Shown here: positions 58,263 to 64,000 of the stretch, one piece after another | How the letters are laid out: each line of letters begins with the position of its first letter | Position numbering within the stretch: the first letter of the stretch is position 1 | Assembly (NCBI RefSeq): GCF_000373625.1 | Contig: NZ_KB891988.1 | Coordinates: forward strand, 470,053-534,052 | Length of the DNA stretch: 64,000 bases | Direction of reading: 5' to 3' | From: Streptomyces sp. LaPpAH-108 | GTDB lineage: Bacteria > Actinomycetota > Actinomycetes > Streptomycetales > Streptomycetaceae | Notes under the pieces: generated by a model | What the model was told of the DNA's origin: nothing | Database searches by the model: none | The model's input: only the letters and a program-made list of their open reading frames with translations | Position numbers and translations under genes: made by a program

Positions 58263-58490
58263 GTGACCAGCCAGTTACCGATACGGGAGCGGGCGGCGGA
58301 CCGTCCGCCCGCTCCCACCCCGGAGCGCGGCGCGAGCCGCCCGCTCACCGCCGTCCCCCTTGGTCCTGCCCGCGCTCGCCGCCCTGCTCCTCGGGCTGTG
58401 GGGGGCTCACCCGGCAGGGCAGCCTGTGGCGGGACGAGTCGGTGACCTGGCAGGTCGCCCACCGCCCGCTCGACGACCTCGCCCTAGCCC
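58263..58490 (+). pseudogene. Truncated, frameshifted mannosyltransferase (GT39-like)
   Basis: The N-terminus of a second membrane glycosyltransferase is readable only across three frames: MTSQLPIRER in frame 1, then LVLPALAALLLGLWG one frame over, then LTRQGSLWRDESVTWQVAHR in the third. The shifts fall in C- and G-runs near 58356 and 58400. The RDESVTWQVAHRP motif is the GT39/ArnT-like first loop with its catalytic Asp. The sequence departs from the family after about 58475, at the edge of the next island. Confidence 0.75.
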
Positions 58491-58820
58491 GCACCCTGGC
58501 CGCCTCCCGCACCCTCCAGGGCACGGAACTGCCTCCCGACACGATCCGGCACCGCTTGCTGTCGGCGGACAGGGTGATAGCCCTGACCGACTCCGAGGGC
58601 CAGCCTCTCGCCCCCTTCGCACAGGAGGTGGTCAAGTGGCGCACGCTGGGGGAGGGGCGCCGAATCGTTGTGCTCGGGCGAGCCTGCCGTGTGGGCGGGG
58701 GAGTTCGCCCAGGTGGCCGACTGGCCGAGGCAGCCTCGTCAGGAGAGGCCGAGGACGGGCCCGCGTTGGGGTAGCGAGGCCGGCGCGACAAGCTCGTCGG
58801 GCGTCGGCTGGCGTTCTCTT
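58491..58820. other. Junction sequence with unrecognised gene fragment
   Basis: A plus-strand frame continues in the same register from the broken glycosyltransferase (RTLQGTELPPDTIRHRLLSA, then DRVIALTDSEGQPLAPFAQE), but it matches no family I recognise and ends by 58774. It looks like the tail of another gene fused by deletion. There is no complete gene and no terminator is evident. Confidence 0.45.
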
Positions 58821-59708
58821 CTACACGATCGGAGGGCGGCCGGCGCGGGTGAGGCGCCAGACGGTGCGCCAGGACATCGGTCGGCGGGCACCGTGTCCGC
58901 CTCGCAAGCCTTCGCGAAATCCGGTGAACCAGGTGGCGAGAGCCTTGCGGGAGCGGATTCGGGCGACGGTGATCAGGACCCACGCGGTCAGGTAGATGGG
59001 AATCAGCGGGGCAGGTAGGCGCCGGTAGGCGACCCAGACGCGGTTGCGGGCGACGAGGCGCAGGTAGAGGGCATGGCGTGCGGGATCGGTCGCGGGGTGG
59101 TGGATGACGATGTCCGGGGCGTACCAGCCGGTGTGGCCGTCGTCCCACAGCCGCCAACTGAGGTCGAGACCCTCGTGGTAGAGGAAGTAGTGGCCGGGCC
59201 AGCCGCCGGCCTGCTCGTAGGCGGCGCGGCGGACAAGGACGACGCCTTCGGCCATGACCGTGACGGTTCCCGGCCGGGTGGGGTCGCCGGCACGCAGTTG
59301 GGGCACCCAGCGGCGGACGGTGATGCCTGTGTCGGGGTCGGCGATGCGGGGCTGAATGTAGGCGGCATCGGGGTGTTGGCGGGCCTGGTCGACGAGCCGG
59401 GCCAGCACATGGGTGTCGGGCAGGTGAGCGTCGTTGTCGAAGAAGAAGATGTACTCGCCCGCGTCGGGTCCGGCAAGGGCGTCGGCCCCGACGTTGCGGC
59501 CTTCGGGGATACCCAGGTTCTCCGGCAGGGCGACGACCGCGACACCGTCCGGTACATGGTCGGGCTCGCAGCCGTTGCCGACGATGACCACCCGCAGGTC
59601 GATGTCCTGCTGGGCGAGGAGGGAGGCCATCGCCCTCGGGAACTCGGCCGGGCGGTCGTTCATGGTCAGCACGACCGCGTCGACGGTGGCCTTGGGACGG
59701 GAGGTCAA
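58821..59708 (-). CDS. Family 2 glycosyltransferase (island operon gene 5)
   Basis: This 295-residue GT-A enzyme has AVVLTMNDRPAEFPRAMASL as the nucleotide-sugar start, the DxD motif FFFDNDAHLPD (91-93), WPGHYFLYHEGLDLSWRLWD as the acceptor/catalytic ED-like region, and a hydrophobic segment near 235-255 that may attach it to the membrane. The TTG at 59708 overlaps the kinase stop (TTGA) with GGAG at good spacing, so it is the last gene of the operon. Rhamnosyl- or other sugar transfer to a lipid or polymer is possible; the acceptor is unknown. Confidence 0.9.
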   Translation of the reverse strand: MTSRPKATVDAVVLTMNDRPAEFPRAMASLLAQQDIDLRVVIVGNGCEPDHVPDGVAVVALPENLGIPEGRNVGADALAGPDAGEYIFFFDNDAHLPDTHVLARLVDQARQHPDAAYIQPRIADPDTGITVRRWVPQLRAGDPTRPGTVTVMAEGVVLVRRAAYEQAGGWPGHYFLYHEGLDLSWRLWDDGHTGWYAPDIVIHHPATDPARHALYLRLVARNRVWVAYRRLPAPLIPIYLTAWVLITVARIRSRKALATWFTGFREGLRGGHGARRPMSWRTVWRLTRAGRPPIV

Positions 59709-60436
59709 CGGGTTCTCCGGGGTTGGACGGGCTCAGTGAGGCGGTCGGTGATGAGGTGGTGGATCTCGGCTGCGGCTGCGGCTGCGGGGCGACTGCCGCC
59801 GTTGGTGACGGTGAGCCAGTGCTGCTCGGTGGAGACCTCGCGCAGCCGGGTTGCGATGAGTTCGGTGAAGCGCCCGTAGCCGTCGGGATCGCGGCTGAGG
59901 CAGCCGGTGTGGTCGAGGTAAGGGTCGGGGCAGCCGTCGGCCCGGTACCAGGTGATGCGGTCCTGCTGGGTGGTGTCGATGTGGATGGTGAGTTGCTGCC
60001 GGTCGGGCGGGAGGAGGCTTTGCTGCCAGGCGGCGAACGCGTGCTGTTGCTCGGAACTCCAGCCGTGGTGGGTGGCTGCTTCAACACCCAGGCGGATCCG
60101 GGTCTTCTCCCACCAGCTCTCGGCTATGACGATCTCGCCGGCATCGAGGGCGGGGACGACCTGGGCGTGCAGGATGGACCGGTACTGGACGGCGGCTGCG
60201 AGGCTGAGGTGTTCCCAGCCGGCGTCGGTGGCGGTGTCGGAGCGGAACAGCTGGTCGATGGCGCGGACGAGGTCGGCGTGGGCGCGGTCGCCGTCGGGCC
60301 GCGCCCGGTCGATCCTGCGCACGGCCCTGCCTGTGCTCGCCAGGGCGGGCACGAGGTGGTCGACGATGGTGGTTTTGCCGGAACCGTCGGCGGCCTCTAT
60401 GACGACGAACAGGCCCGTAACCGGGTGTTCAGCCAC
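59705..60436 (-). CDS. Thymidylate-kinase-like P-loop kinase (island operon gene 4)
   Basis: This 243-residue nucleoside-monophosphate-kinase-fold protein has P-loop IEAADGSGKTT with Lys21, in place of the usual EGxDGSGKTT. A DR-like IDRARPDGDRAHADLVRAID segment and IVIAESWWEKTRIRLG in the position of the TMPK DRY/S stretch follow. The lid differs from housekeeping Tmk, so the substrate may be an unusual nucleotide. The GTG at 60436 has AGGAG 7 nt upstream and overlaps the nucleoside phosphorylase stop by 8 nt. Confidence 0.85.
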   Translation of the reverse strand: MAEHPVTGLFVVIEAADGSGKTTIVDHLVPALASTGRAVRRIDRARPDGDRAHADLVRAIDQLFRSDTATDAGWEHLSLAAAVQYRSILHAQVVPALDAGEIVIAESWWEKTRIRLGVEAATHHGWSSEQQHAFAAWQQSLLPPDRQQLTIHIDTTQQDRITWYRADGCPDPYLDHTGCLSRDPDGYGRFTELIATRLREVSTEQHWLTVTNGGSRPAAAAAAEIHHLITDRLTEPVQPRRTR

Positions 60437-61295
60437 AGTGTGGCTCCTGTTCCGCCTCATGATGGGGCACCACCGTATAGGGCCGGGCGGCGTCCGGGGA
60501 CGGGCCGCGTCCGGTGAAGGCGTCAAGCGCTGCTACCAGGAGCTGCTGCAGAGCGGCCCCGAGGCGGGGAGAGTCAGCGCGGGGTGTGCGATTGACCAGG
60601 CAGTCAGCGGTCGCGAACGCGGCGGCAGTCGGCAGGTGGCGGTGGTGGCCGACGGCGAACAGGCCGGCAGCCTCCATCTCCACGGTGAGGATGCCGTGCT
60701 GGGCGTACAGGTCTGCTTCGGCGGCGCTTTCGCGGTAGAGGGCGTCGGTGGTCCAGGCCGGTCCCCTGGTCCACGTCGCCCCGATGCCGCTCAGCGCTGT
60801 GGCGAGCGAGGCGGTGAGCTGCGGATCCGGGTGCGCGAAGAGGCTTGGCGGCAGGTAGTGGCGGGAGGTGCCTTCTCCGCGTAGCGCCTTCTCGCAGAGC
60901 ACGAGGTCGCCCGGTCGCAGGGCGGGGATGAGGGCGGCTGCAGTGCCGATGGATATGACTGCGGGGACGCCGAGCGCGGTGAGCTGCTCGGTGACGAGCG
61001 CGGTGGCCGGTGCCCCGGCGCCAATGCCGGAGCACAATGCCACGGTCTGGCCACGGTGCTTCAGCAGGTGGAGGTCTGCGCTCGCCCACCCTGTGCGGAG
61101 CTGGGCGGCGGGGTGCGCGGCCAGGGCGTGGCGCAGCAGGCTGTTCTGGTGGACGAGAACGGCCCCGGCGGTGTGGGCGAGAGTGGCGCCGGGGCATCGG
61201 CTGCGGACGTAGGTGGCGTGCTCGGCCGGGTCGATCGCGGCGGCCATCGCGTGCTTGCCGGGCAACGTGGTGCGCAGGGCGGGGCGGCGGGTCAC
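60429..61295 (-). CDS. Nucleoside phosphorylase/nucleosidase family (island operon gene 3)
   Basis: This 288-residue PNP/UDP-family protein has VALCSGIGAGAPATALVTEQ as the phosphate/ribose region, VISIGTAAALIPALRPGDLV, and LTVEMEAAGLFAVGHHR with the ribose-binding Met-Glu. It would cleave a nucleoside's glycosidic bond. The GTG at 61295 forms a GTGA overlap with the radical SAM stop; an internal ATG at 61247 is an alternative start. Which base it accepts cannot be told. Confidence 0.88.
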   Translation of the reverse strand: MTRRPALRTTLPGKHAMAAAIDPAEHATYVRSRCPGATLAHTAGAVLVHQNSLLRHALAAHPAAQLRTGWASADLHLLKHRGQTVALCSGIGAGAPATALVTEQLTALGVPAVISIGTAAALIPALRPGDLVLCEKALRGEGTSRHYLPPSLFAHPDPQLTASLATALSGIGATWTRGPAWTTDALYRESAAEADLYAQHGILTVEMEAAGLFAVGHHRHLPTAAAFATADCLVNRTPRADSPRLGAALQQLLVAALDAFTGRGPSPDAARPYTVVPHHEAEQEPHCG

Positions 61296-63076
61296 GCCGG
61301 GACCGCCGCGCGCGCTCGGAGGGCGTTGGCGAGGGTGTGCTCGTGCTCGGACCGGACGGTGTTGACGGTGTGCCAGGGCAGGAGACCGGTGTCCATGGCG
61401 CGCAGGTGGTGGTCGAAGCTGAGGCCGTGGAGGGCCAGGGCCTGGTGGAGTTGGGGCTTGGTGAGGCGGGTGAAGTCGGCGCCGATGTCGTGGAGGTGTT
61501 CCAGAACGTGGCCGACACGGCGGTCGCCGCGGTCGCAGATGGCTTCGAGCAGCAGACGGGAGTGCTCGCCCCACAGGACGCGGAAGCGGTCGTGGGCGGG
61601 GCCGGCCAGTTCGGTGAGACGGTCGCGGATCGCGGCGACCCACCCGTTGACGAGGTCGGGGTCCGCCATCGGCAGGCGCTGGCTGACGGTGCCGGGCTGG
61701 GGCATGAACTGCTGCAGCTTGACGATGACCGCGCCGTCCGGGCGGTCCAGGCGCTTGAAGACGCGCAGGGCGTAGTCGGCGATGGCCAGCCGGTCCGCGT
61801 GGGTCTCGCCGGGGGCTCCGAGCATGAAGTACAACATGACGGTGCCGAAGTGGGTTGTGGCACGGCACAGGTCCAGGGCACGCCCGACCTTGGCCTCGTC
61901 CATTGTCTTGCCGAAGATGCGCACGAGGTCCTCGGCGGCGAACTCCGGGGCGATGGTGATCACGCCGCGAGGGGCGTCCAGATTCAGCTCGGTGAACAGG
62001 TGGCCGGGGTCGAGGCGGGCGACTGCGTCGAGATAGCCGGCGGTGACCTCGTCGGCGCGGACCGAGCCAATGATCACGCTCACGGGCTCGGCGGCGCGGT
62101 TGGCGTAGGCCGCGATGCGGTCGAGCAGTTCGTCGCGGTACCGGTACTGGGTGAAGGTCGGCGAGCTGATGATGATCGTACGGATGCGATGACGCTCCAG
62201 TGTGTCGATGTAGGCGGTGAGCTGTTCGACCGGGGCGTTCCGAAAGGGCGGGGTGCCGAGCGTGCACATGTGGCAGGAGTGCCGACAGCCGAGGTTGGCG
62301 ATGACCACCGCACAGGAGCCGTCGCTGATCGGTGATGTGAAGTGGGCGGCCCCGAGATCGCGGGGGGTGAGGTACTGCGGGTGAACGGTGCCGGGAGCGG
62401 CCGGGATACGAGGACGGATCGCGGCGGTTCCGCCACCGGGCAGCAGGGTGTGCTCGTAGAGGGAGGGGACGTACAGACCGGGGATGCGGGCGGCCTGTTC
62501 CAGCAGCGCGGCACGGGGACTGTCTCGGTGCTGGCGGGCGAGGCGGATCAGGTCGAGGAAGGAGCGCTCGGCCTCGCCGAGGGCCACGACGTCCAGGAAG
62601 TCGGCCATGGGTTCGGGATTGGCCAGGCCGCCACTGCCACCGACGACCAGCGGGTAGCGCCCCGCGACGCGGTCGGCGCTGCGCCGTGGAACGCCGGCGA
62701 GGTCCAGCAGGCGTAATACGGAGTGCAGGTCACCGGCGTTGGTGACGCTGACGCCGATGATGTCCGCGTCGGCGACGGGGGCAGGGTTCTCGATCGAGCG
62801 GTACGGCTCGCCATGGGGGGTACGCAGCCGGTTCCCGTCGGCGACGAGGCACTCGTAGGCGAGGGCTCGTTCGGCGGTGGCAGGGACGTCTGAGCGGCGG
62901 TTGACGAGGTCGTACAGGGCCATGGGGCCGGTTGCGAGCAGGCTGTAGGCGTGTCCGTACGGTGAGAGGAAGACTACGCGCAGGTCGTCGGGCCGTCGGG
63001 TACGGGAGTACGGGCCGTGGAGGTGGATCTCGTGGCGGCGGATGTGGGCGGTCTCGGTGGCGAGGGCTGCGGTCAC
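61292..63076 (-). CDS. Radical SAM protein with B12-binding-like N-terminal domain (island operon gene 2)
   Basis: This 594-residue protein has an N-terminal Rossmann-like domain of the B12-binding superfamily at about 30-180 (ADIIGVSVTNAGDLHSVLRL, VVGGSGGLANPEP, VVALGEAERSFLDLI) without the DxHxxG cobalamin ligand. The radical SAM barrel at about 255-500 has the cluster motif CRHSCHMC (Cys264, Cys268, Cys271, CX3CX2C). The C-terminal 90 residues are helical. The chemistry is unknown: such proteins do methylthiolation, methylation or C-C bond formation. The GTG at 63076 overlaps the upstream stop (GTGA). Confidence 0.9.
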   Translation of the reverse strand: MTAALATETAHIRRHEIHLHGPYSRTRRPDDLRVVFLSPYGHAYSLLATGPMALYDLVNRRSDVPATAERALAYECLVADGNRLRTPHGEPYRSIENPAPVADADIIGVSVTNAGDLHSVLRLLDLAGVPRRSADRVAGRYPLVVGGSGGLANPEPMADFLDVVALGEAERSFLDLIRLARQHRDSPRAALLEQAARIPGLYVPSLYEHTLLPGGGTAAIRPRIPAAPGTVHPQYLTPRDLGAAHFTSPISDGSCAVVIANLGCRHSCHMCTLGTPPFRNAPVEQLTAYIDTLERHRIRTIIISSPTFTQYRYRDELLDRIAAYANRAAEPVSVIIGSVRADEVTAGYLDAVARLDPGHLFTELNLDAPRGVITIAPEFAAEDLVRIFGKTMDEAKVGRALDLCRATTHFGTVMLYFMLGAPGETHADRLAIADYALRVFKRLDRPDGAVIVKLQQFMPQPGTVSQRLPMADPDLVNGWVAAIRDRLTELAGPAHDRFRVLWGEHSRLLLEAICDRGDRRVGHVLEHLHDIGADFTRLTKPQLHQALALHGLSFDHHLRAMDTGLLPWHTVNTVRSEHEHTLANALRARAAVPA

Positions 63077-64000
63077 GGGTGTGTCCTGTCGGGTCGGCGG
63101 GAGTGGGCGCAGGTGGCCGGAATGGTGTGCGGGGCGGGGCGGCTGGAGGGCGCCAGGACGGCGTGCACCGCGTCGGCGGCCATGAGCCCGGTCGGCTTTC
63201 GCTCACCGGTCAGGAAGGTCTCGGCGATGTAGTCGCTGGTGAGGACTCGGCGCGCTGAGGCCGGCAGCGGCTCGGGCCAGGTGGCAATGGGCCCGGCCAG
63301 GTGGGCAGCCGTGTGGTGGCGGAGCCAGGCGGTCCAGTCATCGGGGGCGTCGGCGATGACGAGGTGGTTGGCGAAGGGTTCCAGGGCGAGCAGGTCGGCG
63401 GTGGTCAGCGTGATGCCGAGCCGGGCCGGGCGCAGGCCGCTGTCGGAGAGGACGACCGGCAGACCGTGCTGGTGATGCAGGTGGCGGGCGACGGCGGTCA
63501 GCAGGGCGTGCCGGTCGGGGGTGGTGTCGGCCCACGGGAGGGCGATGGCGCCAAGCGGTTCGGCGAGGTACGCGGTGAGGCGGTCGATCCGGGTGGTGAT
63601 GTCGGCCAGTTCGGTGGGAGCGGTGCCGTGTCCGGGCAGGGTGTGGTGACTGGCGCTCCACTGGCCGTCGGGGCGGAGGTCGGCCTGGGCGTAGCCGCGG
63701 GCGTACTCAAGGCCCTTGAGGACCATGGCCCGCCCGGCGGGGGTGGGGTTGTGGGCGCCGCTGTGGCAGTGGCCGGCGAAGACCAGGTCGAGGTGGGGGA
63801 CCGCTTCGGCCAGGGCGAGGTCGTGGTCGAAGCCGGCGTGGCTGAGCAGCACCCACGAGTCCACGCCGGGGGTGGTGGCGGCCAGACGCTTCAAGGCGCG
63901 GGCAGGATCGACCAGATGGAGGCCGGGGCGCTGGGAGACGCGGATCGCGTCGAACGCGTCCGGGCCCATGACGCCGGTGACGGCAACGCGGCGGTCGCTG
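63073..64000 (-). CDS. Metallophosphoesterase/5'-nucleotidase-like protein, 5' end outside window (island operon gene 1)
   Basis: The reading frame stays open to the window edge, so the N-terminus is missing; about 309 residues are visible. The calcineurin-like motifs WVLLSHAGFDHDLALAEAVP and LDLVFAGHCHSGAHNP (GHCH metal ligands) mark the UshA/5'-nucleotidase type. A C-terminal nucleotide-binding-like domain follows (LTTADLLALEPFANHLV). No signal peptide can be checked. It is coupled to the radical SAM gene by GTGA. Dephosphorylation of a nucleotide would feed the phosphorylase downstream (inference). Confidence 0.85.
   Translation of the reverse strand, partial: SDRRVAVTGVMGPDAFDAIRVSQRPGLHLVDPARALKRLAATTPGVDSWVLLSHAGFDHDLALAEAVPHLDLVFAGHCHSGAHNPTPAGRAMVLKGLEYARGYAQADLRPDGQWSASHHTLPGHGTAPTELADITTRIDRLTAYLAEPLGAIALPWADTTPDRHALLTAVARHLHHQHGLPVVLSDSGLRPARLGITLTTADLLALEPFANHLVIADAPDDWTAWLRHHTAAHLAGPIATWPEPLPASARRVLTSDYIAETFLTGERKPTGLMAADAVHAVLAPSSRPAPHTIPATCAHSRRPDRTHP

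Follow-up and report, generated by a model that had tools for sequence, protein, structure and literature searches.

Introduction

The LipO-LipP-LipM-LipN pathway makes the aminoribose of A-90289 and muraymycin (PMC4902027), and it resembles the operon reported here in that an aminotransferase, a nucleoside-phosphorylase-family enzyme and a glycosyltransferase are encoded in one cluster and a nucleoside would be turned into an amino-sugar unit. It differs in that a uridine phosphorylase delivers a sugar 1-phosphate and the dioxygenase LipL provides the carbonyl, whereas our operon encodes not a uridine-type phosphorylase with its phosphate-binding arginine but a nucleoside-phosphorylase-fold protein of the purine type (PNP-like) lacking that arginine, together with an isomerase or, elsewhere, an oxidoreductase, and a radical SAM enzyme. 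The nucleocidin cluster, with the radical SAM protein NucJ, NucPNP and NucGT (PMC8694150), is likewise found in Streptomyces and can be likened to the operon by enzyme kind, as it combines a radical SAM protein, an adenosine-type nucleoside phosphorylase and a glycosyltransferase; in contrast, there is no NucV-like APRT among our eight genes, in which a DegT aminotransferase and an isomerase are central. In hopanoid side-chain synthesis by HpnH, HpnG, HpnO and HpnI (PMC12583986), a radical SAM enzyme, a purine-removing enzyme, an aminotransferase and a glycosyltransferase correspond as kinds, but the radical SAM fold class and the aminotransferase family are different, and the PNP-like protein scores under the cut-off of the HpnG model. 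Besides, free 5-fluororibose, which was seen with its ribulose isomer, has been proposed to be formed by an MTA nucleosidase from Streptomyces (PMC7408626). None of these precedents is the same system, and a search of the open-access literature found no description of the gene set, in line with a preliminary description of the locus that knew of no pathway containing it. For the radical SAM protein itself, the nearest sequence family is TIGR03960, which has the same domain order (PF19864 and PF04055) but different gene neighbours.

Operon architecture and insertion site

The window, meaning the whole stretch of 64,000 nucleotides of Streptomyces sp. LaPpAH-108 that was analysed, is part of a contig from a 6.85-Mb genome. 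The preliminary description placed a five-gene operon at its end, and these genes are indeed adjacent on the minus strand and overlap as claimed, by GTGA (phosphoesterase/radical SAM), GTGA (radical SAM/PNP-like), 8 nt (PNP-like/kinase) and TTGA (kinase/glycosyltransferase), while their family assignments were borne out by Pfam and NCBIfam. Reading the contig past position 64000, however, showed that the window edge splits an operon of eight genes, which runs from window-equivalent position 67009 to 58821 and includes the rest of the phosphoesterase gene and three further genes. The first gene encodes an RpiB-like isomerase (window-equivalent 66521-67009), followed by an AP_endonuc_2 TIM barrel protein, a candidate epimerase (65597-66448), a DegT/StrS aminotransferase assigned by Pfam/NCBIfam (64401-65597, overlapping the TIM barrel gene by 1 nt), a 5'-nucleotidase-like metallophosphoesterase (PF00149; 63073-64000 in the window, full gene to window-equivalent 64335), the radical SAM protein with its cobalamin-type N-terminal domain and CxxxCxxC motif (61292-63076; PF19864 and PF04055), the PNP-like protein (60429-61295; PF01048), a thymidylate-kinase-like P-loop kinase (59705-60436, 243 aa; PF02223 and TIGR00041, both below cut-off) and a GT2 glycosyltransferase (58821-59708, 295 aa, TTG start; PF00535). 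Among the curated models scanned, the operon proteins were matched at superfamily level only. A divergent NsdA-family regulator gene begins at window-equivalent 67039, with a GNAT gene beyond it from 68670. Four-nucleotide overlaps are ordinary in operons, and the non-chance element is the conserved linkage rather than the short overlaps.

In two relatives that do not carry the operon (G020 and G003), both flank genes are close to each other, separated by a thiolase gene and in G020 by a P450 gene as well, while the same place in the window genome holds about 11 kb comprising the operon, the regulator and the GNAT gene. This short site between the same flanks shows the operon to be acquired, and together with the plasmid copies and the linkage at 24 of 24 scorable loci presented below it supports the reading of the genes as one functional unit on the acquired island suggested earlier. 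As operon and window have equal GC contents (0.715 and 0.716), the donor is taken to be a similar high-GC genome. Between the conserved left-flank gene and the GT2 gene, the insertion edge is marked by a membrane-glycosyltransferase-like remnant (58310-58775, plus strand), whose frame translation, compared with the intact relatives L143 and L145, joins the N-terminal SLWRDESVTWQVAHRPL to a C-terminal part, the middle being deleted. The "broken core gene" of the preliminary description is therefore broken, by internal deletion, but not core, since its tail occurs in only seven of 41 relatives and the gene is thus accessory.

Distribution and conserved gene set

An alignment scan of the collection with the radical SAM protein recovered at least 17 Streptomyces loci at 57-61% identity; below these orthologues, among the matches listed, identity falls to 30%, at generic TIGR03960 proteins. 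Orthologues were present in four of 199 sampled genomes of the genus and in six of 247 of the order, all six from the same genus, and in a sample of the class (395 genomes from 137 genera) the window's own was the sole one. A few percent of Streptomyces have the operon, and so do some plasmids, among them those of S. clavuligerus, S. violaceusniger and Streptosporangium.

The 24 scorable loci include S. violaceusniger pSTRVI02 (L025), S. clavuligerus pSCL4, a Streptosporangium plasmid and four further genomes. The DegT, radical SAM and PNP-like genes are linked at all 24, counting two near identical loci (L029 and L037), and this core is joined by the RpiB-like gene at 22 and by the GT2 gene at 21, in shuffled order; L038 is truncated. 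The GT2 gene usually lies downstream of the core; its upstream position in G370 and S. clavuligerus shows that the link has outlasted rearrangement. None of the partner genes was found beside generic TIGR03960 radical SAM genes at 52 loci of at least 10 kb each. Between the five main genes, the distance matrices show Mantel correlations of r 0.80-0.92, which species history may partly explain. Conserved co-occurrence without scattering was thus observed, yet for a set other than the five genes originally named, namely DegT, radical SAM and PNP-like, usually with rpiB and GT2. A phosphoesterase gene within the operon is confined to the window and G370 copies, and a kinase gene beside the core to these two, the Streptosporangium plasmid (L169) and G568 (L174); as the kinase, the TIM barrel protein and the phosphoesterase are missing from most copies, the general chemistry must be able to do without them. 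Among the loci compared, the core has no conserved transporter or resistance gene beside it, which would be unusual for an exported antibiotic. Six copies carry SDR and hexapeptide acetyltransferase genes directly upstream of rpiB, a pair absent from most copies, including the window's. At the S. griseocarneus locus, where GT2 is missing, the region upstream of the core (L026:333-7862) encodes a methyltransferase, two SDR epimerases, a Gfo/Idh oxidoreductase, a second DegT protein and two proteins with no Pfam match.

Two sub-types could be distinguished. L169 and L174 encode the TIM barrel protein, a Gfo/Idh oxidoreductase, DegT, radical SAM, PNP-like protein and kinase but neither RpiB nor phosphoesterase nor GT2, and most other copies encode RpiB, DegT, radical SAM, PNP-like protein and GT2. 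The window and G370 operons, whose proteins are 76-85% identical, share the TIM barrel protein and kinase with the former and RpiB and GT2 with the latter, encode the phosphoesterase in addition and have no Gfo/Idh gene. A tree of the radical SAM proteins places L169 and L174 deepest, followed by window plus G370 and finally by the 19 remaining rows (98/99), although the deep forks are weak (84/54 and 80/64), and we tentatively regard the window and G370 operons as an intermediate architecture. RpiB and Gfo/Idh proteins appear as alternative candidate ketone makers beside the same DegT enzyme. The G568 copy (L174:2067-18915) lies in a Streptomyces genome inside a low-GC NRPS-like cluster of about 52-65% GC, likely of foreign origin, the copy itself having 52-57% GC, with adenylation (two AMP-ligases), condensation-like, PLP-decarboxylase and SDR genes around the cassette, and this position between NRPS-like genes assigns the cassette to specialised metabolism. 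At L169, two APH-type kinase genes directly follow the PNP-like gene (L169:15886-17816) and a PhyH dioxygenase gene lies upstream of the radical SAM gene; their products may replace other steps or protect the producer.

The radical SAM enzyme

With 176.4 bits against an NCBIfam cut-off of 462.3, the radical SAM protein falls outside TIGR03960, to whose proteins it is 26-30% identical, and the radical SAM proteins of the operon form a separate sister clade split off at 100/100 by a long branch. A sequence search returned no solved relatives of either the radical SAM protein or GT2. The structure model of the former is confident (pLDDT 91.2) and finds MgmA, TsrM, CysS, TokK, OxsB and AprD4 as nearest solved structures, with MqnE at rank 49 and HpnH absent from the matches. 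It has a Rossmann-like N-terminal domain and a radical SAM barrel with CxxxCxxC, which is the class B (cobalamin-dependent) arrangement, and we assign it a predicted cobalamin-type fold, which makes it a putative cobalamin enzyme. The nearest enzymes named catalyse C-methylation, ring contraction or diol dehydration, several of them on sugars or nucleosides, and AprD4, also among the matches, is a cobalamin-free member. An Rfam scan near six copies gave no match, hence no cobalamin riboswitch near the six examined.

Sugar- and nucleoside-handling enzymes

In Leishmania RpiB, His11, Arg113, Arg137 and Arg141 contact the substrate phosphate (PMC4783025). At these positions (LdRpiB numbering), all 18 RpiB-like proteins compared carry, in this order, variable residues, G/A, S and K or similar, while all 18 keep the catalytic cysteine. 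The window protein scores 132 bits with TIGR02133, against 168, and does not pair the cysteine with phosphate-binding His/Arg residues as RpiB does. The metal-site motifs of the TIM barrel are retained in the window copy. DegT enzymes usually use nucleotide sugars, and no enzyme of the window operon would obviously supply them; the operon contains no sugar-1-phosphate nucleotidyltransferase for the role of LipM, while an NTP_transf_5-type protein is encoded near L169 and a 26% relative in L174.

The model of the PNP-like protein (pLDDT 81) best matches 5'-methylthioadenosine phosphorylase. When they are aligned with Mtn, DeoD, Udp and Amn of E. coli, with residue roles carried over from DeoD and Mtn, the PNP-like proteins keep the catalytic Asp common to Mtn and DeoD and an ME(A/S) motif, lack the PGDPLR motif and, in all members compared, have S/T in place of the phosphate-binding Arg in the VxRVG motif (IIRVG in DeoD), a position at which the solved relatives 4lnh and Thermus PNP carry Arg. 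Scores stay below cut-off for the MTA/SAH nucleosidase model (19.5 versus 73.8 bits) and for HpnG (53.8 versus 187.1 bits). We consider the protein probably a nucleosidase, bearing in mind that the residues were mapped by sequence alignment and that loss of the phosphate Arg is no proof of hydrolysis.

The P-loop of the kinase, described earlier as altered, is standard: AADGSGKT fits [AG]x4GK[ST], and homologues have GADGSGKS. The departure from thymidylate kinases lies in the DR(Y) motif, where A(D/E)SWWxK is found instead (AESWWEK in the window protein), and the dTMP kinase model TIGR00041 gives 24.8 bits against a cut-off of 83.25, with no DR(Y/F) motif present. Core-linked homologues are 77% (G370), 42% (Streptosporangium plasmid) and 38% (G568) identical. 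GT2 has FFDND as its DxD motif, and its counterparts near the core are 63-78% identical. The GT2 paralogues of the same genome were considered as traces of a second cluster and discarded, as L010 is solitary and the other, 48% identical (L011:9359-14522), belongs to a CDP-alcohol phosphatidyltransferase/ABC-exporter polymer cluster near squalene-synthase-like genes.

The phosphoesterase, whose nearest solved structures are 5'-nucleotidases, reads GNHGF rather than GNHEFD, and its G370 counterpart is 80% identical. It was rejected as part of the core, as its homologues (42-50% identical, present in about 50 of 394 genomes of Streptomyces) mostly lie in another cluster (L130-L140, e.g. L131:6464-14840). 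That cluster encodes an EPSP/MurA-like transferase, a phosphoesterase, two dCTP-deaminase-like proteins, a glycosyltransferase, a beta-lactamase-like hydrolase, a TPR protein and a flavoprotein, sometimes adjoins a relaxase-like gene, and looks like an undescribed nucleotide-derived pathway.

Proposed pathway and alternatives

From the observed gene content, linkage, acquisition and motif changes and the predicted fold, we infer substrates, an order of steps and a product. The operon would be an acquired accessory biosynthetic unit in which the core trio and a keto-sugar maker convert an adenosine-type nucleoside into an amino sugar, usually passed on through GT2 to a specialised metabolite, a proposal to which we give an even chance. 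Of the suggestions made earlier, the making or remodelling of a nucleoside(-sugar) fares well, a nucleoside-derived sugar being its best reading. In the window type only, the phosphoesterase may release a nucleoside from a nucleotide. The PNP-like enzyme, with its Asp kept and phosphate Arg lost, could release the base of a purine nucleoside that is modified or unphosphorylated at the 5' position, and the RpiB-like and TIM barrel enzymes, in which the cysteine and metal motifs are kept and the RpiB phosphate residues lost, might turn the free sugar into a ketose by isomerisation or epimerisation, the Gfo/Idh oxidoreductase presumably supplying the ketone in place of the RpiB-like enzyme in sister clusters. 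DegT would aminate the ketone, as is usual in its family, the radical SAM enzyme may perform C-methylation, ring contraction or deoxygenation, judging by its fold, and the kinase could activate the product, which GT2 would transfer or glycosylate. That phosphate contacts have been lost from both the PNP-like and the RpiB-like enzyme, which would act in succession, argues for a sugar without terminal phosphate, probably adenosine-derived. A new logic, in which adenosine, possibly the 5'-deoxyadenosyl sugar of SAM, loses adenine and the phosphate-free 5-modified ribose passes through an RpiB turned to a new use, DegT and cobalamin-fold radical SAM enzymes of a new class to an amino sugar or aminocyclitol, is a speculative idea that we deem doubtful.

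Cobalamin radical SAM methylases yield both 5'-deoxyadenosine and SAH, and the PNP-like protein might only clear these from the radical SAM reaction, within an ordinary NDP-amino-sugar route (SDR, DegT, acetyltransferase and GT2) extended by radical C-methylation. The fold match to MTA phosphorylase agrees with this, as do the six copies with SDR and hexapeptide acetyltransferase genes upstream of rpiB, as in NDP-acetamido-sugar pathways; however, most copies, the window's too, lack this pair, RpiB has no role in NDP-sugar routes, and the MTA/SAH nucleosidase score is far under cut-off, and we hold such a clearing function to be rather unlikely. The order of enzyme kinds, the same as in hopanoid side-chain synthesis (PMC12583986), led us at first to favour an HpnH-like adenosylation, in which 5'-deoxyadenosyl is added to an acceptor, and adenine is removed, leaving a C5-linked ribose to be isomerised, aminated and glycosylated. 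A 5-C-linked ribose without 5-phosphate would suit the lost phosphate residues, and HpnG does give its 53.8 bits on the PNP-like protein, yet under the cut-off of 187.1. This explanation was demoted when the fold search returned a cobalamin-type enzyme, with MqnE so far down and HpnH not seen; moreover, the aminotransferase is a DegT protein and no acceptor-making gene is conserved, which makes it improbable in our eyes.

The preliminary description had also raised defence against foreign nucleotides. Nucleotide-handling families, the island location and the sparse distribution would suit an anti-phage operon, but PADLOC gave only two weak matches, in the P-loop region of the kinase, no effector-like gene belongs to the core, one copy sits in an NRPS-like cluster and the neighbouring regulators are of the NsdA family, leaving defence unsupported and, we believe, very improbable. 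A nucleoside-derived amino sugar is the most likely product of the operon.

Conclusion

The operon defines a cassette, widespread but sparsely distributed, that centres on an uncharacterised subfamily of radical SAM enzymes. Since the gene set is also present in the well-studied S. clavuligerus (pSCL4), discovery of the product by gene removal and LC-MS is feasible. If true, the phosphate-free sugar logic would be an added route from nucleosides to amino sugars.
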